64,000 nucleotides of DNA, from NCBI RefSeq assembly GCF_000761215.1, contig NZ_CP009438.1, positions 3,985,001 to 4,049,000 of the forward strand, in the 5' to 3' direction. The notes under the pieces are model-generated. The model was not told where the DNA came from. It worked only from the letters and a program-made list of their open reading frames with translations, and did not search any database. Origin of the DNA: Streptomyces glaucescens. GTDB taxonomy: Bacteria > Actinomycetota > Actinomycetes > Streptomycetales > Streptomycetaceae. Positions 24,835 through 50,884 of this stretch are shown one piece after another. Each line of letters opens with the position of its first letter. The first letter of the stretch is position 1. The position numbers and the translations under genes are program-made.

Positions 24835-25731
24835 TCAGCTGATGCGGGCGTAGCCGTAGTTGATCAGCTTCTTCACGTCGGCGGTGCGGTAGGCCTCCGA
24901 CGAGGAGGACAGGACGGTGCCCATCACCTGCTCGCCGTTGAGCGTGGCGGCGAAGACCAGGCAGTACTTGGCCTCGGGACCGGAGCCGGTCTTGATGCCG
25001 AGCGTGCCGTTCCAGCCGAGCAGCGTGTTGGTGTTGGCCCAGGGCGCCATCGTCCGGATGGCCCCGGTCTTGGTGATCGTCTTGGCCGTGTACGACTTCG
25101 TCTTCACCACGGCCCGGAACGTGCTGCTCTTCATCGTGCTGCGCGCGAGCTTCGTCAGGTCGCGCGGCGTCGAGTAGTTGGAGCCGTTGCTGATGCCGTC
25201 GAACGAGTCGAAGTGCGTGTTGGTCATGCCCAGGCTCTTGGCCATGGTGTTCATCTTGCCGATGAAGTTGGCGGTGCGGGCCTTGACCGAGGTGCCGGTG
25301 CCGAACTTGTCGGCGAGGGCCATCGCGGCGTCGCAGCCGGACGGCAGCATCATGCCGTAGAGGAGCTGACGGACGGTGACCTTGTCACCGACGATCAGGC
25401 GCGCCGACGAGGCGCCCTTGGAGACGATGTAGTCGCTGATCTCCTTCCGGATCGTCACCTTGGTGTCCAGGTTCAGGTTCGGCTGCGAGAGCACGACCTT
25501 GGCGGTCATGATCTTCGTGGTGGAGGCCGTGAGCCGCTTGGTGTCGCCGGACTTCGTGTACAGGGTCGCGCCGGTCGCGCCGTTCATCACGAAGGCGCCC
25601 TTGGCGGTGACGGTGGGCACCGTGAGGGCCTGCGCGGGGGCGGCGACGACCGCACCCGTGGTGATCATGGCGCCGGTGGCGAGCCCGACCGTGATGGCTC
25701 TGCGGACCCGAACGCCCGAAATGCTGCTCAT
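24835..25731 (-). CDS. D-alanyl-D-alanine peptidase/transpeptidase of the Streptomyces K15 type
   Basis: A 298-residue secreted serine peptidase (family S11, low-molecular-mass penicillin-binding protein). The signal peptide spans ~1-36 with hydrophobic core AITVGLATGAMITTGAVVAA and cleavage after PAQA. Catalytic motifs are STTK (Ser70, Lys73), SGC (131-133) and KTG (247-249). The well-studied Streptomyces K15 DD-transpeptidase has the same unusual Ser-Gly-Cys in place of SxN, with the same 61-residue spacing from the nucleophile. It trims or cross-links peptidoglycan stem peptides outside the membrane. The ATG at 25731 is preferred; a TTG directly before it is less likely. The ribosome site is weak. 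Confidence 0.92.
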   Translation of the reverse strand: MSSISGVRVRRAITVGLATGAMITTGAVVAAPAQALTVPTVTAKGAFVMNGATGATLYTKSGDTKRLTASTTKIMTAKVVLSQPNLNLDTKVTIRKEISDYIVSKGASSARLIVGDKVTVRQLLYGMMLPSGCDAAMALADKFGTGTSVKARTANFIGKMNTMAKSLGMTNTHFDSFDGISNGSNYSTPRDLTKLARSTMKSSTFRAVVKTKSYTAKTITKTGAIRTMAPWANTNTLLGWNGTLGIKTGSGPEAKYCLVFAATLNGEQVMGTVLSSSSEAYRTADVKKLINYGYARIS

Positions 25732-25977
25732 CAAGAGAAATACCCCGAACTAATCGATAAGTCCCGTTTGTTGTGGCCGAGTTGAGAGGGGGCGCAACAG
25801 GGCCGCACAGGTGAGACAGCTGGGGGCGGGGAATGGTTGTACCGCGAATCCCGGGGCATTCGGCCGGTGTTCCGGCCGGCCTCCCGGCGGTGTTCCGTCC
25901 GCCGTTCCGGCCGGTGTCCCGGGTCCGCATCCTGGACGGCCGCCCCCATGCGTACGTGATGTATCTATCCTGTCGGC

Positions 25978-42394: not shown

Positions 42395-44158
42395 ATGCAT
42401 CGGTACAGGTCCCACACCTGCGGCGAGCTCCGCGCCTCTGACGTCGGCACCGACGTCCGGCTGAGTGGCTGGCTGCACAATCGGCGCGACCTGGGCGGCA
42501 TCCTCTTCATCGACCTGCGCGACCACTACGGCATCACGCAGCTGGTCGCCCGTCCCGGCACCCCCGCCTACGAGGCGCTGGACAAGGTCTCCAAGGAGTC
42601 CACGGTCCGCGTCGACGGCAAGGTCGTCTCACGCGGCACCGAGAACGTGAACCCGGACCTGCCCACCGGTGAGGTCGAGGTCGAGGTCGGCGAGGTCGAG
42701 CTGCTCGGCGCCGCCGCCCCGCTGCCCTTCACGATCAACACCGAGGACGGCGTCAACGAGGAGCGCCGCCTGGAGCACCGCTTCCTCGACCTGCGGCGCG
42801 AGCGCATGCACCGCAACATCATGCTGCGCACGGCGGTCATCTCCGCCATCCGGCACAAGATGACCGCGCTGGGCTTCAACGAGATGGCGACGCCGATCCT
42901 GTCCGCGACCTCCCCCGAGGGCGCCCGCGACTTCGTCGTCCCCTCCCGCCTGCACCCGGGCAAGTTCTACGCCCTCCCGCAGGCGCCCCAGCAGTTCAAG
43001 CAGCTGCTGATGATCTCCGGCTTCGACCGCTACTTCCAGATCGCGCCCTGCTTCCGCGACGAGGACGCCCGCGCCGACCGCTCGCCGGGCGAGTTCTACC
43101 AGCTCGACGTCGAGATGAGCTTCGTCGAGCAGGAGGACGTCTTCCAGCCGATCGAGAAGCTCATGACCGAGCTGTTCACCGAGTTCGGCGGGGGCCGTGA
43201 GGTCACCTCCCCGTTCCCGCGGATCCCGTTCCGCGAGGCGATGCTGAAGTACGGCTCCGACAAGCCGGACCTGCGCGCCAAGCTGGAGCTGGTCGACATC
43301 ACGGACGTCTTCGAGGCGTCCGAGTTCAAGGCGTTCGCCGGCAAGCACGTGCGCGCGCTGCCGGTCCCGGCCGTCCAGGACCAGCCCCGGAAGTTCTTCG
43401 ACCAGCTCGGCGACTTCGCGGTGACGCTCGGCGCCAAGGGCCTGGCCTGGGTGCGCGTGGGCGAGGACGGCCAGCTCTCCGGCCCGATCGCCAAGTTCCT
43501 CACCGAGGAGAACGTCAAGGTCCTCACCGAGCGCCTCGGCCTGGAGGCCGGTCACGCCGTGTTCTTCGGCGCCGGCGAGTTCGACGAGGTCTCCAAGATC
43601 ATGGGCGCGGTGCGGGTCGAGGCCGCCAAGCGGGCCGGGCACTTCGAGGAGAACGTCTTCCGCTTCTGCTGGATCGTCGACTTCCCGATGTACGAGAAGG
43701 ACGAGGAGACCGGCGCGATCGACTTCTCGCACAACCCGTTCTCCATGCCGCAGGGCGGCCTGGAGGCCCTGGAGACCCAGGACCCGCTGGACATCCTCGG
43801 CTGGCAGTACGACATCGTCTGCAACGGTGTCGAGCTGTCCTCCGGCGCGATCCGCAACCACGACCCGGAGATCATGCTCAAGGCCTTCGAGATCGCGGGC
43901 TACGACCGGGACACCGTGGAGGAGAAGTTCGCGGGCATGCTCCGCGCCTTCCGCTTCGGCGCCCCGCCGCACGGCGGCATCGCCCCGGGCGTCGACCGCA
44001 TCGTCATGCTCCTCGCGGACGAGCCCAACATCCGCGAGACCATCGCCTTCCCGCTCAACGGCAACGCCCAGGACCTGATGATGGGCGCGCCGACCGAGCT
44101 GGAGGAGGCGCGGCTGAAGGAGCTGCACCTGTCGGTGCGCAAGCCGCAGCCCAAGTAG
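42395..44158 (+). CDS. aspS: Aspartyl-tRNA synthetase
   Basis: A 587-residue class IIb synthetase of the bacterial long type. It has the N-terminal OB-fold anticodon-binding domain ([21 protein letters not shown]) and motif 2 ([23 protein letters not shown] split across the loop). The bacterial GAD insertion spans ~300-420 ([22 protein letters not shown]), and motif 3 is [12 protein letters not shown]. It charges tRNA-Asp, and possibly also tRNA-Asn in a non-discriminating organism; the sequence alone does not settle this. The ATG at 42395 begins [12 protein letters not shown], the standard start. A strong terminator follows. Confidence 0.96.
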
Positions 44159-44168
44159 TCCGTCCGAC

Positions 44169-44206
44169 GGAAGGGCCCGGAACCGAGCGAGGTTCCGGGC
44201 CCTTCC
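44169..44206. terminator. Terminator after aspS
   Basis: GGAAGGGCCCGGAACC-GAGCGA-GGTTCCGGGCCCTTCC, a perfect 16-base stem, eight bases after the aspS stop. It also faces the stop of the convergent FG-GAP gene 1. Confidence 0.95.
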
Positions 44207-44234
44207 GTGTGTGCGGCGGTGCCGCCGGTCCGTG

Positions 44235-45653
44235 TCAGAGGAGCCTGAGCAGGCCCTTGCCGCCCAGCCAGCCGTCGGTTTGTGCCATGCCGAGTGTTTC
44301 CAGGGTGAAGACGCGGCTGCCGGTGCCGGTCGGGCGGGAGGTGCCGCCGGGCAGTGTGAAGACTGCGCCGTTGCCGTTGTTCTCGCCGGCCGCGCCGATG
44401 ATGAGTTCCGGCCTGCCGTCGCGGTTCAGGTCGCCGGCGGAGAGCGTGGTGCCGAAGAAGTCGCCGGTCTCGTTGCTGCTGGGGATGGCGGTGGTGTCCT
44501 GGTGGTAGGAGTAGCCGCCGGTGCCGAGGGCGCCCGAGCGGCGGCCGGGGATCACGGTGACGGTGCCGGTGCGTTCCGCCGTGCCGACGGCCTCGTACGG
44601 TGCGCCGATCACGATCTCGGCGGCGCCGTCCCGGTTGAGGTCGGCCACGGTGAGGGCGGCGCCGAAGGTGTCGCCCTTCTCGCCGGTGCCGGGGACGCCC
44701 GTGGTTTCCTGGGTGATCACTTCGGGGATCTGCGTGTGGGTGATGCCGTTCTTCGAGCCGCGGTAGACGAGCACGCGTCCGCCGGTCTCGCCGTCGATGC
44801 CCGGTGTCACGGGTTCCAGGGGGTCGCCGACCACGAGGTCGGCGTAGCCGTCGCCGTTGACGTCTCCGGTGGCGGCGATCAGCCCGTTGCCGTTCTTCAG
44901 CGGCCCGGTCCACGTCGCGGTGCCGCCGTGGTTGACCATGATCGGGCTGCCGCTCAGCTCGGGCCGGAGCGCGCCGAAAGCCACCTGGTCGGGGCTGCCG
45001 CTGCGGTTGAAGTCACCGAGCGCAACCGAGCCGACGGCGTTGTCGGTCCGGGTTTGGACCTGTGAACCGACGGAACCGCCGCTGGTGAACGGGCCCTTGA
45101 AGACGGTCGTCCACCGGGCGCCGCCGATGAGGATCTTGGTCTTCGAGCCCGACCCCATGCTGAGCGCGGCCACGTCGAGGCCGTTGTCGTCCTCGTACGA
45201 CGACGACAGCGGCAGCCTGGTGCCCTTCGCCAGACCGTTCCTGCTTCCCCAGATCACGGTGACCTGCCGCTCCGCGATGCTGTCCGGTGAGCCGACGACC
45301 AGGTCGGCGTATCCGTCACGGTTCAGGTCGGCCGTCGCCGTGGTGGTGCCGAACCGGTCCCGCTCGAACGGGTGCCCGGGGATACTGGGCGTCGCCTCCG
45401 TGATCGTCTGCCGCCGGCTCTTCGCCGAGACGCCGTTCGCCGAGCCGTACAGCACGACGACGGCCCCCGCCTGCGGGGCGTTGCCGTACTCCTCGACAGC
45501 GGCCCCCGGCACCGGCAGCACCAGGTCGCGGTAGCCGTCGCCGTTGAAGTCCCCCGGTACCGCTCCGTGCACGGCGGCGGCCGGCGCGGCGGGCAGCAGC
45601 GTTCCCGCGATCACCGCGGCGGCCGCGACCACTGCCGCACTCCCTCTGCGCAT
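44235..45653 (-). CDS. Secreted FG-GAP (integrin-alpha-type beta-propeller) protein 1
   Basis: A 472-residue exported protein. The signal peptide spans ~1-28 (basic MRRG, then AAVVAAAAVIAGTLLPAAPAAA). About six to seven FG-GAP blades follow, each with a calcium loop of the type DFNGDGYRDL, DLNRDGYADL, DVNGDGYADL or DLNRDGAAEI. Blades of this kind build a beta-propeller for ligand or surface binding. The start ATG at 45653 follows GGAAGGGGAC, which is paired in a leader hairpin. The last ~265 residues are almost identical to those of gene 3 (47186), while the first ~200 differ. Last of three tandem paralogues. Confidence 0.9.
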   Translation of the reverse strand: MRRGSAAVVAAAAVIAGTLLPAAPAAAVHGAVPGDFNGDGYRDLVLPVPGAAVEEYGNAPQAGAVVVLYGSANGVSAKSRRQTITEATPSIPGHPFERDRFGTTTATADLNRDGYADLVVGSPDSIAERQVTVIWGSRNGLAKGTRLPLSSSYEDDNGLDVAALSMGSGSKTKILIGGARWTTVFKGPFTSGGSVGSQVQTRTDNAVGSVALGDFNRSGSPDQVAFGALRPELSGSPIMVNHGGTATWTGPLKNGNGLIAATGDVNGDGYADLVVGDPLEPVTPGIDGETGGRVLVYRGSKNGITHTQIPEVITQETTGVPGTGEKGDTFGAALTVADLNRDGAAEIVIGAPYEAVGTAERTGTVTVIPGRRSGALGTGGYSYHQDTTAIPSSNETGDFFGTTLSAGDLNRDGRPELIIGAAGENNGNGAVFTLPGGTSRPTGTGSRVFTLETLGMAQTDGWLGGKGLLRLL

Positions 45654-45720
45654 GTAAGTCCCCTTCCTCGACACACGGTCGAAGAAGGGGACCTCTCAGC
45701 ACCGCGCAGGGTTGTAGCCC
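45654..45720 (-). promoter_or_regulatory. Leader element of FG-GAP gene 1: SD-masking hairpin
   Basis: On the coding strand TACAACC (45716-45710) is followed after 17 bases by GTCCCCTT (45692-45685), a loop with inner stem TCGAC/GTCGA, and AAGGGGAC (45665-45658), the Shine-Dalgarno site. The 8-base outer stem is perfect and would hide the ribosome site. Confidence 0.75.
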
Positions 45721-45725
45721 TCGGG

Positions 45726-47135
45726 TCAGATGATCCAGAACAGTCCGAAGCCGCCCAGCCAGCCCTCGTACCACTGGGGCATGCCCAGCGAGTCCAGAGT
45801 GAAGGCGCGGCTGCCGGTCCCGGTGGGCCGCTTGCTGCCGCCGGGCATCATGAACACCGCGCCGTTGTAGTGGTTCTCGCAGGCCGCGCCGATGAACAGC
45901 TCCGGCCTGCCGTCCCGGTTCACGTCCCCGGCCGACACGGTCGCACCGAAGCAGTCCCGGGTCTCGTTCACGCTGGGCACGCCGGGGGTGTCCTGGTGGA
46001 AGGTGTACCCGCCCGCGCCGAGCGGGCCCGAGCGGCGGCCGGGTATCACGGTGACCATGCCCGTACGCCGCACCTCGCCGACCGCCTCGTAGGGCGCGCC
46101 GACGACGAGGTCCGCGAGGCCGTCCCGGTTCAGGTCGGCGACCGCGAGGCCCGCGCCGAAGGTGTCGCCCTTCTCGCCCGTGCCGGGCACGCCCGCGGTG
46201 TCCTGGCTGATCACCTCGGGCTGCGCGTCCGGCGTGATGCCGTGCGCGGAGCCGCGCCAGATCAGCACCCGGCCGCCCAGTTCGCCGTCGACGCCCGGGG
46301 TCCAGGGCGTCAGCGGGTCGCCCACCACCAGGTCGGTGTAGCCGTCGCCGTTGACGTCACCGGTCGCGGCGATGAAGCCGTTGCCCTTCTCCAGCACCGT
46401 CCCGGTGGGGGCACCGGTCTGGTTCAGCCGGATGTCGCTGCCGGTGACGTCGGTCCGGCGGGCGCCGAAGTCCACCTGGTCGGGCGTGCCGTCCCGGTCG
46501 AAGTCGCCCAGGGCCACCGATCCGACCAGGCCGTACTCGTGCGGGGTCTGCACCGCCGAGCCGTAGCTGCCGGAGCTGCTGAAGGGACCCCTGAAGACGA
46601 CGGTCCCGAGGTCCGAGCCGACCATCACCTGGGTCTTCGCGCCGGGTCCGGTGCTGAGCGCCGCCACGTCCGTGCCGTAGGACTCGGTGTAGGACGGCGC
46701 GGCCAGCAGGGTGCCCTTGCGCAGGCCGTCCTTGCTGCCCCACATCACCGTGACGGTCCCCGCGCGGGAGCCGCCCCAGGGGGCGCTGATCACCAGGTCG
46801 GCGTAGCCGTCGCGGTTGAGGTCGGCGGTGGCGGTGGAGGTGCCGAAGCCGCGCGAGTTGTCGACCGGCGCCGGGACGCCGGGCGAGTTCTGGCTGATGA
46901 CCTGGCGCCGGCTCCCCGACACCCCGGACGAGGAGCCGTACAGCACGACGACGGCGCCCGCCCGGTGCTTGTCACCGAGGTCCGCGCCGGGTATCGGCAG
47001 TACCGCGTCGCGGTAGCCGTCCCCGTTGAAGTCGCCGGGTGCCGCCGCGTGGACGGCCGTGGCGGGGGCGGCCGGTGCCAGCAGCCCCGCGATCAGTCCG
47101 GCGGCCACCAGGGCGGCCGCCTTCCATCTGCCCAT
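45726..47135 (-). CDS. Secreted FG-GAP (integrin-alpha-type beta-propeller) protein 2
   Basis: A 469-residue exported protein with the same architecture as its neighbours. The signal peptide is MGRWKAAALVAAGLIAGLLA to PATA, followed by calcium-loop blades DFNGDGYRDA, DLNRDGYADL, DFDRDGTPDQ, DVNGDGYTDL, DLNRDGLADL and DVNRDGRPEL. It is the most divergent of the three throughout its length (for example unique Cys residues in RDCFGATVS and AACENHYNG that could form a disulfide). It starts 50 bases after the gene 3 stop. Secreted propeller proteins of this kind are abundant in Streptomyces and poorly characterised. Confidence 0.9.
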   Translation of the reverse strand: MGRWKAAALVAAGLIAGLLAPAAPATAVHAAAPGDFNGDGYRDAVLPIPGADLGDKHRAGAVVVLYGSSSGVSGSRRQVISQNSPGVPAPVDNSRGFGTSTATADLNRDGYADLVISAPWGGSRAGTVTVMWGSKDGLRKGTLLAAPSYTESYGTDVAALSTGPGAKTQVMVGSDLGTVVFRGPFSSSGSYGSAVQTPHEYGLVGSVALGDFDRDGTPDQVDFGARRTDVTGSDIRLNQTGAPTGTVLEKGNGFIAATGDVNGDGYTDLVVGDPLTPWTPGVDGELGGRVLIWRGSAHGITPDAQPEVISQDTAGVPGTGEKGDTFGAGLAVADLNRDGLADLVVGAPYEAVGEVRRTGMVTVIPGRRSGPLGAGGYTFHQDTPGVPSVNETRDCFGATVSAGDVNRDGRPELFIGAACENHYNGAVFMMPGGSKRPTGTGSRAFTLDSLGMPQWYEGWLGGFGLFWII

Positions 47136-47198
47136 GTCTGTCCCCTTTCCCCACGCACTGTTGGAGAAGGGGACATGTCACGGCCTCAGTTGGTTGTA
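47136..47198 (-). promoter_or_regulatory. Leader element of FG-GAP gene 2: SD-masking hairpin
   Basis: TACAACC (47198-47192) lies in the last codons of gene 3. GTCCCCTT (47174-47167) follows after exactly 17 bases, and pairs with AAGGGGAC (47147-47140), the ribosome site. The inner stem differs from that of gene 1 (CCA/TGG instead of TCGAC/GTCGA), which suggests pairing rather than sequence is kept. Confidence 0.75.
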
Positions 47199-48616
47199 CC
47201 GTCACCGGCGTCGAGGAGCCTGAGCAGGCCCTTGCCGCCCAGCCAGCCGTCGGTCTGGGCCATGCCGAGTGTTTCCAGGGTGAAGACGCGGCTGCCGGTG
47301 CCGGTCGGGCGGGAGGTGCCGCCGGGCAGTGTGAAGACTGCGCCGTTGCCGTTGTTCTCGCCGGCCGCGCCGATGATGAGTTCCGGCCTGCCGTCGCGGT
47401 TCAGGTCGCCGGCGGAGAGCGTGGTGCCGAAGAAGTCGCCGGTCTCGTTGCTGCTGGGGATGGCGGTGGTGTCCTGGTGGTAGGAGTAGCCGCCGGTGCC
47501 GAGGGCGCCCGAGCGCCGGCCGGGGATCACGGTGACGGTGCCGGTGCGCTCGGTCGTGCCGACGGCCTCGTACGGCGCGCCGATCACGATCTCGGCGGCG
47601 CCGTCCCGGTTGAGGTCGGCCACGGTGAGGGCGGCGCCGAAGGTGTCGCCCTTCTCGCCGGTGCCGGGGACGCCCGTGGTTTCCTGGGTGATCACTTCGG
47701 GGATCTGCGTGTGGGTGATGCCGTTCTTCGAGCCGCGGTAGACGAGCACGCGGCCTCCGGTCTCGCCGTCGATGCCCGGTGTCACGGGTTCGAGCGGGTC
47801 GCCGACCACGAGGTCGGTGTAGCCGTCGCCGTTGACGTCTCCGGTGGCGGCGATCAGTCCGTTGCCGTTCTTCAGCGGCCCGGTCCACGTCGCGGTGCCG
47901 CCGTGGTTGACCATGATCGGGCTGCCGCTCAGCTCGGGCCGGAGCGCTCCGAAGGCCACCTGGTCGGGGCTGCCGCTGCGGTTGAAGTCACCGAGCGCCA
48001 CCGAGCCGACGGAGCCGTCGGTCCGGGTCTCGACGCTCGATCCGAACGAGCCGTCCTTGGCGAACGGGCCCTTGTAGACGGTCGTCCACACGTCGGCGCC
48101 GACCAGGATCTTGGTCCTGGAGCCGGCTCCCAGGCCGGCCGCGGCCAGGTCGAGGCCGTAGTCGCCCTGGTGCAGGTTCTGCGGCAGCCGGGTGCCCTTG
48201 GTCAGGCCGTCCCTGCTTCCCCAGAGGACCGTGACCTGCTCGTGCGCTTCGCTGTGCGGGGAGCCTACGACCAGGTCGGCGTATCCGTCGCGGTTCAGGT
48301 CGGCCGTCGCCGTGGTGGTGCCGAACCGGTCCCAGGCGTCCAGGCGCCCGGGAACGCCGGGCGAGTCCTCGGTGATGGTCTGTCGCCGGCTGACCGAGGA
48401 GACACCCCGGGACGAGCCGTACACCACGACGACGGCACCCGCCCATTGGGCGCCCTGGAGGCTCGCACCCGGCACCGGCAGCACCAGGTCCCGGTACCCG
48501 TCGCCGTTGAAGTCCCCCGGTACCGCCCCGTGCACGGCGGCGGCCGGCATGGCCGGCACCATCGTCCCCGCGATCACCGCGGCGGCCACGACCGCGGCCG
48601 CGCTCCCTCTGCGCAT
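47186..48616 (-). CDS. Secreted FG-GAP (integrin-alpha-type beta-propeller) protein 3
   Basis: A 476-residue exported protein, first of the three in transcription order. The signal peptide runs MRRGSAAAVVAAAVIAG to MPAAA; the blades have the loops DFNGDGYRDL, DLNRDGYADL, DFNRSGSPDQ, DVNGDGYTDL, DLNRDGAAEI and DLNRDGRPEL. It carries eight extra C-terminal residues (DAGDGTTN) that coincide with the TACAACC element of gene 2's leader. Near-identity with gene 1 begins around VGSVALGDFN and continues to GKGLLRLL, including most silent positions. The ATG at 48616 follows GAAGGGGGAC. Confidence 0.9.
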   Translation of the reverse strand: MRRGSAAAVVAAAVIAGTMVPAMPAAAVHGAVPGDFNGDGYRDLVLPVPGASLQGAQWAGAVVVVYGSSRGVSSVSRRQTITEDSPGVPGRLDAWDRFGTTTATADLNRDGYADLVVGSPHSEAHEQVTVLWGSRDGLTKGTRLPQNLHQGDYGLDLAAAGLGAGSRTKILVGADVWTTVYKGPFAKDGSFGSSVETRTDGSVGSVALGDFNRSGSPDQVAFGALRPELSGSPIMVNHGGTATWTGPLKNGNGLIAATGDVNGDGYTDLVVGDPLEPVTPGIDGETGGRVLVYRGSKNGITHTQIPEVITQETTGVPGTGEKGDTFGAALTVADLNRDGAAEIVIGAPYEAVGTTERTGTVTVIPGRRSGALGTGGYSYHQDTTAIPSSNETGDFFGTTLSAGDLNRDGRPELIIGAAGENNGNGAVFTLPGGTSRPTGTGSRVFTLETLGMAQTDGWLGGKGLLRLLDAGDGTTN

Positions 48617-48680
48617 GGGTGTCCCCCTTCGTCGACGCATGATCGAGAAAGGGGACCACTCAGCGTCCCGGAGGGTTGTA
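48617..48680 (-). promoter_or_regulatory. Leader element of FG-GAP gene 3: SD-masking hairpin
   Basis: TACAACC (48680-48674) is followed after 17 bases by GTCCCC (48656-48651), which pairs with GGGGAC (48626-48621) next to the ribosome site; an inner TCGA/TCGA stem is present and one arm has a single-base bulge. It has the same layout as the other two leaders. Confidence 0.72.
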
Positions 48681-48699
48681 CGGGCTCACAGCGCGCCGC

Positions 48700-49065
48700 T
48701 CAGCGGGCGACGAACTGGGTGAGGATCGCCTGGACCTCGTAGATGTCGACGCCCTTGGTGAAGGTCTTGGTGATCGGCATCTGGCTGCCGGAGAGCCAGA
48801 TCTTCAGCTCGGCGTCGAGGTCGAAGGTGCCGGCGGTCTCCACCGCGAAGTGGGTGATGCTGCGGTAGGGGATCGAGTGGTACTCGGTCTTCTTGCCGGT
48901 GATGCCCTGCTTGTCGACCAGGATCAGCCGGCGGTCGGTGAACAGGATGGTGTCGCGGATCAGCAGGTAGGCGGCGTGCACCTGCTCGCCGTGGCCCAGC
49001 AGCCGGGCGTAGTCCTGGGACGCCTGCGCCGGGTCGATGGCGTGCGCGTTGCCGAAAAGAGCCAT
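48700..49065 (-). CDS. Bacterial PH-domain protein (YvbH-like)
   Basis: A 121-residue protein covering a single bacterial pleckstrin-homology domain (LLGHGEQVHAAYLLIRDTILFTDRRLILVDKQ, YHSIPYRSITHFAVETAGTFDLDAELKIWL), ending in a helix VDIYEVQAILTQFV. The fold is known from structural genomics in the Bacteroides/Bacillus family; the ligand is unknown. There is no signal or membrane segment. GTGGGGGG lies before the ATG. It lies directly upstream of the FG-GAP genes but is separated from gene 3 by that gene's own leader. Confidence 0.87.
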   Translation of the reverse strand: MALFGNAHAIDPAQASQDYARLLGHGEQVHAAYLLIRDTILFTDRRLILVDKQGITGKKTEYHSIPYRSITHFAVETAGTFDLDAELKIWLSGSQMPITKTFTKGVDIYEVQAILTQFVAR

Positions 49066-49156
49066 GAAAGTGGACCCCCCACTCGGATGTCACACGAAGG
49101 GCTTCATGTGATCTTGGCCAGATATACCTGGTGAGTGAGGGGTCCGAGAAGGGCTG

Positions 49157-50884
49157 TTACGCGGCTGTTTCCCCGCCGAAGCGCTCCTTGTACGCGGCCA
49201 GGTCGTCATCCGTCAGCTTGGCGAACAGGACCGGCGGGACGGTGAAGGGCGTGCCGGCCGGGACCGAGGCCAGCGCCTTCGCCTCCTCCTGGGCGACCCA
49301 GGTGGCGGTGTCGCCGGTGAGGGAGAAGGCCTGGCGCATCGCCGCGGAGGTGGCCGGGATGAAGGGCTCGGAGACCACCGCGTACAGGTGGATGAGGTTC
49401 ATCGCCGTGCGCAGGGTGAGCGCCGCGCCGTCCTTGTTCGTCTTGATCTCCAGCCAGGGGGCCTTCTCCTCCAGGTAGGAGTTGCCCGCGGACCACAGGG
49501 CGCGCAGCGCGGCGGCGGCCTTGCGGAACTGGAGGGCCTCCATCTGCTGCTCGTACTCGGCGAGCAGCCGGGCGATCTCCTCGCCGAGGCGCGCCTCCGC
49601 CTCGCCGGGCTCGCCGCCCGCCGGGACCTCCTCGCCGAAGCGCTTCCTGGAGAAGGACAGGACGCGGTTGACGAAGTTGCCGAGGGTGTCGGCGAGGTCC
49701 TTGTTCACCGTGGCGGTGAAGTGCTCCCAGGTGAACGAGGAGTCGTCGGACTCGGGGGCGTTGGCGATCAGGAAGTAGCGCCAGTAGTCGGCCGGGAGGA
49801 TGTCCAGCGCCTGGTCGGTGAAGACGCCGCGCTTCTGCGAGGTGGAGAACTTCCCGCCGTAGTACGTCAGCCAGTTGAAGGCCTTGACGTAGTCGACCAT
49901 CTTCCACGGCTCGCGCACGCCGAGCTCGGTCGCCGGGAACATCACCGTGTGGAACGGGACGTTGTCCTTCGCCATGAACTCGGTGTAGCGGACGGGGTTC
50001 TCACCGGAGTCCGCCTCGTACCACCACGACTTCCAGTCCCGGTTCTCCGGGTCCTGGTCCGCCCACTCCTTCGTCGCGCCGATGTACTCGATCGGGGCGT
50101 CGAACCAGACGTAGAAGACCTTGCCCTCCGCCGCCAGCTCCGGCCAGGTGTCCGCCGGGACCGGGACACCCCAGTCCAGGTCACGGGTGATGGCGCGGTC
50201 GTGCAGGCCCTCGTTCAGCCACTTGCGGGCGATGGAGGAGGCGAGCTGCGGCCAGTCGTCCTCGTGGCGGGCCACCCAGGCCTCGACCTCGTGCTGGAGC
50301 TTGGACTGGAGGAGGAAGAGGTGCTTGGTCTCGCGGACCTCCAGGTCCGTGGAGCCGGAGATCGCGGAGCGGGGGTTCAGCAGGTCGGTGGGGTCGAGGA
50401 CCCGGGTGCAGTTCTCGCACTGGTCGCCGCGCGCCTTGTCGTAGCCGCAGTGCGGGCAGGTGCCCTCGACGTAGCGGTCGGGGAGGAAGCGGCCGTCGGC
50501 GGGCGAGTACACCTGGCGGATCGCCCGCTCCTCGATGAAGCCGTTCTCGTTCAGCTTGCGGGCGAAGTGCTGGGTGATCTCGACGTTCTGCTTGCTGGAG
50601 CTGCGGCCGAAGTAATCGAACGCGAGTGCGAAACCGTCGTAGACGGCCTTCTGGGCGTCATGGGCCTGCGCGCAGAACTCCGCCACCGGCAGGCCCTGCT
50701 CCTTGGCCGCCAGCTCCGCCGGGGTGCCGTGCTCGTCCGTCGCGCAGATGTACAGGACGTCGTGGCCGCGCTGGCGGAGGTACCGGGAGTACACGTCCGC
50801 CGGGAGCATGGACCCCACCATGTTGCCCAGGTGCTTGATCCCGTTGATGTACGGAAGGGCGCTGGTGATGAGGTGTCGAGCCAT
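49157..50884 (-). CDS. metG: Methionyl-tRNA synthetase
   Basis: A 575-residue class Ia synthetase. The HIGH box is [13 protein letters not shown] and the single zinc knuckle is [17 protein letters not shown]. The catalytic domain has [15 protein letters not shown]. The KMSKS loop reads [11 protein letters not shown], with Thr at the position of the second Lys. The helical anticodon domain follows, without the C-terminal tRNA-binding extension of longer MetRS. It charges tRNA-Met and initiator tRNA. The ATG at 50884 gives [12 protein letters not shown]. It is followed 90 bases on by the PH-domain gene. Confidence 0.95.

Follow-up and report, generated by a model that had tools for sequence, protein, structure and literature searches.

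Hairpins over the Shine-Dalgarno sites of tandem FG-GAP genes in Streptomyces glaucescens, nested with an ECF-type promoter, as a possible guard against read-through translation

Results

We analysed a 64,000-nucleotide stretch of Streptomyces glaucescens DNA (contig NZ_CP009438.1, positions 3,985,001 to 4,049,000), here called the window, in which three tandem genes on the minus strand encode FG-GAP beta-propeller proteins. The subject of this study is the leader carried by each of these genes, where the motif of a sigma-factor promoter overlaps a hairpin over the Shine-Dalgarno (SD) site. Gene 3, the first in the tandem, lies at 47186-48616 of the window and encodes 476 amino acids (Pfam PF01839, E 5.4e-45); its product is probably secreted, as judged by eye from a signal-peptide-like N terminus. 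It is followed by gene 2 (45726-47135, 469 amino acids, PF01839, E 1.1e-44) and by gene 1, the last (44235-45653, 472 amino acids, PF01839, E 3.7e-43), and the start codons of genes 3, 2 and 1 stand at 48616, 47135 and 45653. When gene 2 was compared with solved structures, integrin alpha chains made up all 60 matches listed (best E 4.3e-11). Its best named match, in a search that may omit records very near the window's own, was from S. glaucescens NRRL B-2706 (94% protein identity). Directly upstream of gene 3 and co-directional with it lies a bacterial PH-domain gene (48700-49065, minus strand, PF08000, E 1e-47), whose stop codon falls about 20 nt ahead of the gene 3 -35 box and which is a possible source of read-through into gene 3.

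Direct reading of the minus strand confirmed that all three genes are preceded by TACAACC, exactly 17 bases and GTCCCC, together with a hairpin bearing the SD site, as had been proposed from the sequence in an earlier note (hereafter the original prediction). For gene 3 the promoter motif spans 48654-48680, with the -35 box TACAACC at 48674-48680 and the -10 box GTC at 48654-48656. For gene 2 it spans 47172-47198; the -10 GTC is at 47172-47174 and the -35 box, at 47192-47198, sits within the last codons of gene 3, so the predicted intrusion of the element into that gene was borne out. For gene 1 it spans 45690-45716 (-35 at 45710-45716, -10 GTC at 45690-45692). The hairpins, also on the minus strand, are 35-36 nt long with the SD site in the 3' arm. 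That of gene 3, GTCCCCTTTCTCGA..TCGACGAAGGGGGAC (48621-48656), opens with the -10 box in its 5' arm, and fold computation gave GTCCCCTTCTCCA..TGGGGAAAGGGGAC (47140-47174) for gene 2 and GTCCCCTTCTTCGAC..GTCGAGGAAGGGGAC (45658-45692) for gene 1. The stems comprise 13-15 pairs. As the original prediction had it, the outer stem has 8 perfect pairs in genes 1 and 2 and one bulged G in gene 3, and the inner stems read TCGAC/GTCGA, TCGA/TCGA and CCA/TGG; the outer arms, GTCCCCTT/AAGGGGAC, are almost invariant and overlap the promoter core. Folding z-scores were -2.48, -3.51 and -4.38 for genes 3, 2 and 1, and shuffled sequences folded at least as well in 3 of 200 cases for gene 3, the least clear of the three, and in 0 of 200 for each of the others.

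The full pattern TACAACC-N17-GTCCCC had three matches in the 7.62 Mb host genome (7,623,774 bases on two contigs, of which contig 1 has 7,453,200), all at these three genes, and its reversed form had none. With GTC in place of GTCCCC there were four matches in the window against 0.02 expected, the fourth, which lacks the GTCCCC arm, lying at 25815-25841 on the minus strand, upstream of a Peptidase_S11 D,D-carboxypeptidase gene (24835-25734). We then compared upstream regions of FG-GAP relatives, with start codons estimated from alignments. From 189 gene hits, 155 distinct regions were retained, and 34 were dropped because the hit started beyond residue 60, because less than 150 nt lay upstream or because the 120-nt upstream sequence was a duplicate. 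ACAACC-N17-GTC was present in 41 of the 155 regions (39 of 153 when two regions from motif-fetched loci were excluded), any other spacer from 8 to 29 in 0-2, and the two boxes on the opposite strand in 1 region altogether. Since the spacer is fixed at a single length, the two boxes behave as a -35/-10 pair, and an extracytoplasmic function (ECF)-type sigma promoter almost certainly precedes each of the three FG-GAP genes. Among the 41 regions, 8 were hairpin leaders like those of the window, and 33 (31 loci), referred to below as sister promoters, lacked the GTCCCCTT hairpin arm; 32 aligned cases of the latter run on as GTCtCctg.tcgcc. All 33 come from the named FG-GAP loci, which are the best 80 of 314 relatives; a further FG-GAP locus set comprised at most 30 relatives.

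The spacing has a known counterpart. Table 1 of PMC6767563 lists many S. coelicolor sigma-E promoters with AAC-18 nt-GTC geometry, which the FG-GAP promoters share; the former often read GGAAC, whereas the latter read ACAACC. About half of the genes with sigma-E promoters in that source are related to the cell envelope, and the terms 'FG-GAP' and 'SCO3794' are absent from its main text. The motif described here is borne by another ECF sigma gene, of TIGR02983 type.

This gene emerged from the 18 matches to TACAACC-N17-GTC in the host genome (7 for the reversed pattern). By our reading, 3 of the 18 belong to the FG-GAP genes, 7 lie 35-107 nt ahead of likely gene starts and 8 lie in or across open frames, although some of the 7 promoter places are also overlapped by mechanical open frames. 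The seven genes encode a lipoprotein-like protein, a beta-lactamase-like protein, a D,D-carboxypeptidase, two fibronectin-like secreted proteins, an L,D-transpeptidase-like protein and an ECF sigma factor. Profiles identified the carboxypeptidase (PF00768, E 2.9e-43), the sigma factor (TIGR02983, E 2.6e-56) and a semialdehyde dehydrogenase as neighbour of the latter; the other product labels were assigned by eye. In the ECF sigma gene (L154:1500-2219; motif at 4,175,604 of contig 1) a GTG codon stands 8 nt after GTC. Orthologues were found in 40 of 41 genomes of the genus, and in all 30 loci fetched ACAACC-N17-GTC lies directly upstream, with GTG exactly 8 nt past GTC and in frame with the conserved domain without a stop. 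Together with the spacer-locked motif in 41 of 155 regions, this strongly supports the sigma-factor promoter of the original prediction. Because 8 nt is too short for an SD site, the sigma message is most simply leaderless, starting at the G of GTG, and its transcription probably begins 9 nt after the -10 box. Because the same promoter motif precedes its own gene, the ECF sigma factor encoded just after 4,175,604 is the best candidate for the regulator of the FG-GAP promoters, and it is itself a candidate for an autoregulated, leaderless gene. It is probably the counterpart of S. coelicolor SCO3613, which lies beside asd. The gene that follows it encodes a long, acidic, repeat-rich product with a membrane-anchored look by eye, an anti-sigma candidate, and no Pfam or NCBIfam match to this product was found. 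In the passages that name it, SCO3613 is noted only as a sigma factor varying in abundance (PMC9739823) or in expression (PMC12175524).

Transferred from the ECF sigma loci, a start 9-11 nt after GTC would place the transcription starts of genes 3, 2 and 1 at 48643-48645, 47161-47163 and 45679-45681 on the minus strand. These positions should fall past the outer 5' arm, within the hairpin. If GTC is the -10 element, the GTCCCC arm would be missing from each gene's own RNA; and if the structure matters as RNA, the relevant RNA would then be one that reads through from upstream. A start inside the hairpin that leaves the left arm untranscribed, which the original prediction had set against its masked leader, is what this comparison predicts.

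The cost of opening the SD site was computed for nine leaders from three genomes, in read-through RNA and in own-promoter RNA at several start offsets. In read-through RNA it was 11.0-20.1 kcal/mol in all nine. In own RNA it was 0.1-5.9 kcal/mol at offsets of 9-11 and 0.0-5.9 kcal/mol when transcription began only 4 nt past GTC, while RNA beginning at the G of GTC required 3.7-16.6 kcal/mol. At offsets 9-11, the read-through and own values were 16.6 and 5.9 kcal/mol for gene 3, 15.1 and 1.3 for gene 2, and 16.8 and 0.8-1.0 for gene 1. Masking of the SD site, as originally proposed, therefore holds on the computed folds for read-through RNA but not for own RNA, which is predicted to start inside the hairpin. 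The difference between the two RNAs was 11.0-20.8 kcal/mol in the 8 hairpin leaders (the ninth, G172_a, was outside this comparison) and -2.8 to 5.8 (median 0.2) in the 33 sister promoters; the Mann-Whitney p of 7.5e-6 between the groups is not phylogenetically corrected and is given no weight.

We next examined whether pairing is conserved. Across the nine leaders 92.5% of cells were paired, compared with 52.6-66.9% when the partner was slid by 1-3 positions, and the observed percentage was reached by 6 of 500 column shuffles. The covariation score of 0.224 was reached by 11 of 500. In this check, which the original prediction had proposed, covariation was present but slight: double changes occurred in 2 of 15 pairs (35-49, UA/CG; 37-47, GC/AU), no more than in shuffles (mean 2.2). 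G-U cells outnumbered A-C cells by 12 to 2 (binomial p 0.013, not corrected for relatedness), an asymmetry expected of coding-strand RNA rather than of a DNA palindrome. The pairing data thus favour a function as coding-strand RNA, though thinly, since the nine leaders belong to just two types that are related to each other.

A covariance model of the leaders, R1, was searched against Streptomyces. Of 392 genomes of the genus, 3 gave strong full-length matches (E 6.2e-16 or better), all of them at the nine founding leaders. In a set of 120 relatives of the genome G172, searched with E up to 1e-4, the model matched G172 itself, G017 and, weakly, a single place in G035 (E 1.7e-6). The search suggested in the original prediction thus returned the founding leaders and no further strong ones, so that the covariation rests on nine. 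Of 27 weaker R1 loci inspected (L197-L223) and the G035 locus, most are terminator-like palindromes by eye. Scanning 44000-49400 against Rfam yielded 6 matches (E up to 5), all of them short of the gathering score; the one with the best E-value scored 21.8 bits, where 36 would be needed, and lies within gene 2 on the opposite strand.

TACAACC-N16/18-GTCCCC occurred in 64 of 295 genus genomes. In 29 such loci (L004-L032) an SD hairpin was seen by eye only in L015 and L020, and many matches lay within open frames. In five of these loci (L009, L016, L021, L023 and L028) TACAACC-N17/18-GTCCCC stands ahead of LytR-CpsA-Psr-like genes, with no SD hairpin by eye. FG-GAP relatives of about 50-60% identity (L116-L133) were not counted as bearing the same element, as they mostly have other upstream boxes; many show by eye a TTTACACT-like box together with a stem-loop, GGCGCAC/GTGCGCC or variants, that ends just upstream of the SD site and does not take it in. 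In several of the FG-GAP loci of about 47% identity (L135-L142), CCCCCA..TGGGGG pairing potential around the SD site was seen by eye directly following a GAATAC-like box.

A second family of leaders came from the weaker R1 loci L202, L211, L212 and L214, which led to luciferase-like monooxygenase genes. The pattern TCCCCTT..AAGGGGA before ATG, which gene 3 escapes owing to its bulge, had 23 matches in 17 of 295 genomes (5 matches for the reversed pattern). In ten distinct leaders before monooxygenase genes (L211, L230, L232, L236, L239, L241, L244, L245, L246 and L250, about position 1500), a palindrome is followed by a TA[AGC][CG]GT box and this in turn by a hairpin; the identity of the genes was tested by profile for one (PF00296, E 9.6e-42) and recognised in the rest by similarity seen by eye. 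Like the FG-GAP leaders, they have a box abutting a TCCCCTTCGCC..GGCGAAGGGGA hairpin with the SD site before ATG. They differ in the promoter-like box, in a CTGAC/GTCAG-type palindrome, in the unrelated gene and in less complete predicted relief: for RNA that begins 6-9 nt past the box, opening is computed to cost 2.7-9.2 kcal/mol instead of 18.5-22.8. From consensus, we would guess that the box is the -10 element of these genes, and the leaders would then be an independent case of the same nested layout.

Discussion

We propose that the hairpin is a translational guard that makes the tandem FG-GAP genes obey only their sigma factor, a reading to which we give a probability of roughly 60%. Each gene would have its own ECF-sigma promoter, with -35 ACAACC, 17 nt and -10 GTC, and the -10 box with the bases that follow it (GTCCCCTT...) would double as the 5' arm, the 3' arm carrying the SD site. 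RNA from this promoter would start within the hairpin, some 9-11 nt past GTC, and would lack the 5' arm, leaving the SD site freer so that the message is translated. RNA arriving from the PH-domain gene or from the preceding FG-GAP gene would contain both arms, form the hairpin of 13-15 pairs, hide the SD site and go untranslated. Direct support comes from the hairpin, the promoter motif with its spacing, the computed opening costs and the pairing in nine leaders; the start site, the existence of read-through RNA, the outcome for translation and the acting sigma factor are the parts of the scheme that we infer. In keeping with it, all 8 leaders tested have a co-directional gene whose end lies in the interval from 45 nt ahead of the first base of the -35 box to 12 nt beyond that base, with neighbouring genes called by codon-position G+C.

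Several results weigh against this proposal. Upstream context discriminates poorly, as a co-directional gene also precedes 24 of the 33 hairpin-free sister promoters, at a distance of no more than 45 nt in 6 cases; for the ninth leader, G172_a, there is no clear co-directional gene close upstream. The start offset of 9-11 nt was taken over from a different gene, that of the ECF sigma factor. The own RNA of gene 3, the highest of the nine, still requires 5.9 kcal/mol to open. There is no clear excess of double-changed pairs (2, reached by 395 of 500 shuffles), double-changed cells (6, reached by 75 of 500) or further pair types (9, reached by 481 of 500). The leaders represent two paralogous types in three genomes, hence few independent events, and the full element is rare in the genus (3 of 392 genomes).

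Other explanations of the hairpin were considered. It could be a terminator or a stabiliser of the mRNA 3' end of the upstream gene, masking the SD site merely by position and blocking read-through at RNA polymerase. Its place just past the upstream stop codon and the terminator-like look, by eye, of many hairpin-only model matches elsewhere speak for this, but there is no T run, no terminator-like site was found in 44100-49200 (shuffle mean 1.9), and the 3' arm is an SD site 5-6 nt from the start codon in all nine leaders. We consider this explanation unlikely, although terminator and guard functions could coexist. We also regard as improbable an RNA switch acting on the gene's own transcript, with a start upstream of GTCCCC and an SD site masked by default and opened by a signal, a protein or temperature. 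A stable SD-masking hairpin with pairing conserved in nine leaders would suit a switch, and a start at the G of GTC would give the opening cost of 3.7-16.6 kcal/mol reported above. However, the spacer-locked comparison makes GTC a -10 element, so that the 5' arm should go untranscribed, and an opening cost of 11-20 kcal/mol seems high for a thermometer. A ligand-type switch found no support either: no Rfam family reached its gathering threshold in the scanned region, strong model matches were limited to the nine founding leaders, and only one of five loop columns (column 43) is invariant.

A DNA operator, with a dimeric repressor bound to the palindrome that covers the -10 box and the start site, would explain why the outer arms GTCCCCTT/AAGGGGAC are nearly invariant over the promoter core. 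It does not predict inner arms that vary with pairing kept, often as G-U (12 cells) and seldom as A-C (2), and the half-site centres are about 27 bp apart, which is not a whole number of helical turns; we hold it to be quite improbable. Least probable to us is that the pairing is a by-product, in which the -10 consensus GTC(T/C)CC is by chance complementary to a GGGGA-type SD site and was copied by tandem duplication. The occurrence in only 3 of 392 genomes and the duplication of leaders along with their genes fit this idea, but comparable pairing is absent from the 33 sister promoters, and the length of the stem, 13-15 pairs, with its inner pairs maintained, argues against coincidence.

The proposed guard resembles systems known from phage. 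In T4 gene e and I-TevI, as described in the relevant passages of PMC3014915 and PMC2988022, RNA started upstream folds and hides the ribosome site, and a late promoter, located in the DNA that encodes the 5' strand of the hairpin, yields RNA without that strand. The FG-GAP leaders likewise combine an SD-hiding hairpin in the long RNA with a promoter nested in its DNA, and sequestration of the SD site in upstream-started RNA was found here by computation only. The T4 and I-TevI cases involve phage late promoters, and 5' ends were mapped for T4 e, whereas the starts given here are predicted ones. In S. glaucescens the promoter is of ECF type, chromosomal and repeated ahead of each tandem paralogue, and no sequence relation to the phage systems is claimed. 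In IS10 and IS50, translation of transposase from read-through RNA is inhibited, since the ribosome site is hidden there and not in own-promoter RNA. The hairpin arm in those elements comes from the inverted repeat of the mobile element, whereas in the FG-GAP leaders it comes from the -10 box. In the open-access literature, most subscription journals being outside the scope of the search, no title or abstract on this element was found among the matches listed. The FG-GAP element would be a variant of the nested-promoter hairpin of phages, here situated in genes of an actinobacterial chromosome and combined with an ECF-type promoter.

More tentatively, and with the odds somewhat against it, leaders with a start inside the hairpin may be a general Streptomyces insulation against read-through that arose at least twice, with more genes under other SD hairpins remaining to be found. 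The two origins in that doubtful scenario would be an ECF promoter at the FG-GAP genes and a palindrome-bearing, vegetative-looking promoter at the monooxygenase genes.

Genes that share the motif make up a candidate ECF regulon, in which secreted and cell-wall proteins figure. As the sigma gene has orthologues in 40 of 41 genomes, and as all 30 loci fetched combine the motif with a start that is probably leaderless, this regulon is directly testable. Where a genome is compact and rich in G+C, transcription of tandem genes that lack clear terminators can be expected to run on from one gene to the next, and a -10 box that also serves as an anti-SD arm would tie a gene to its own sigma factor alone.

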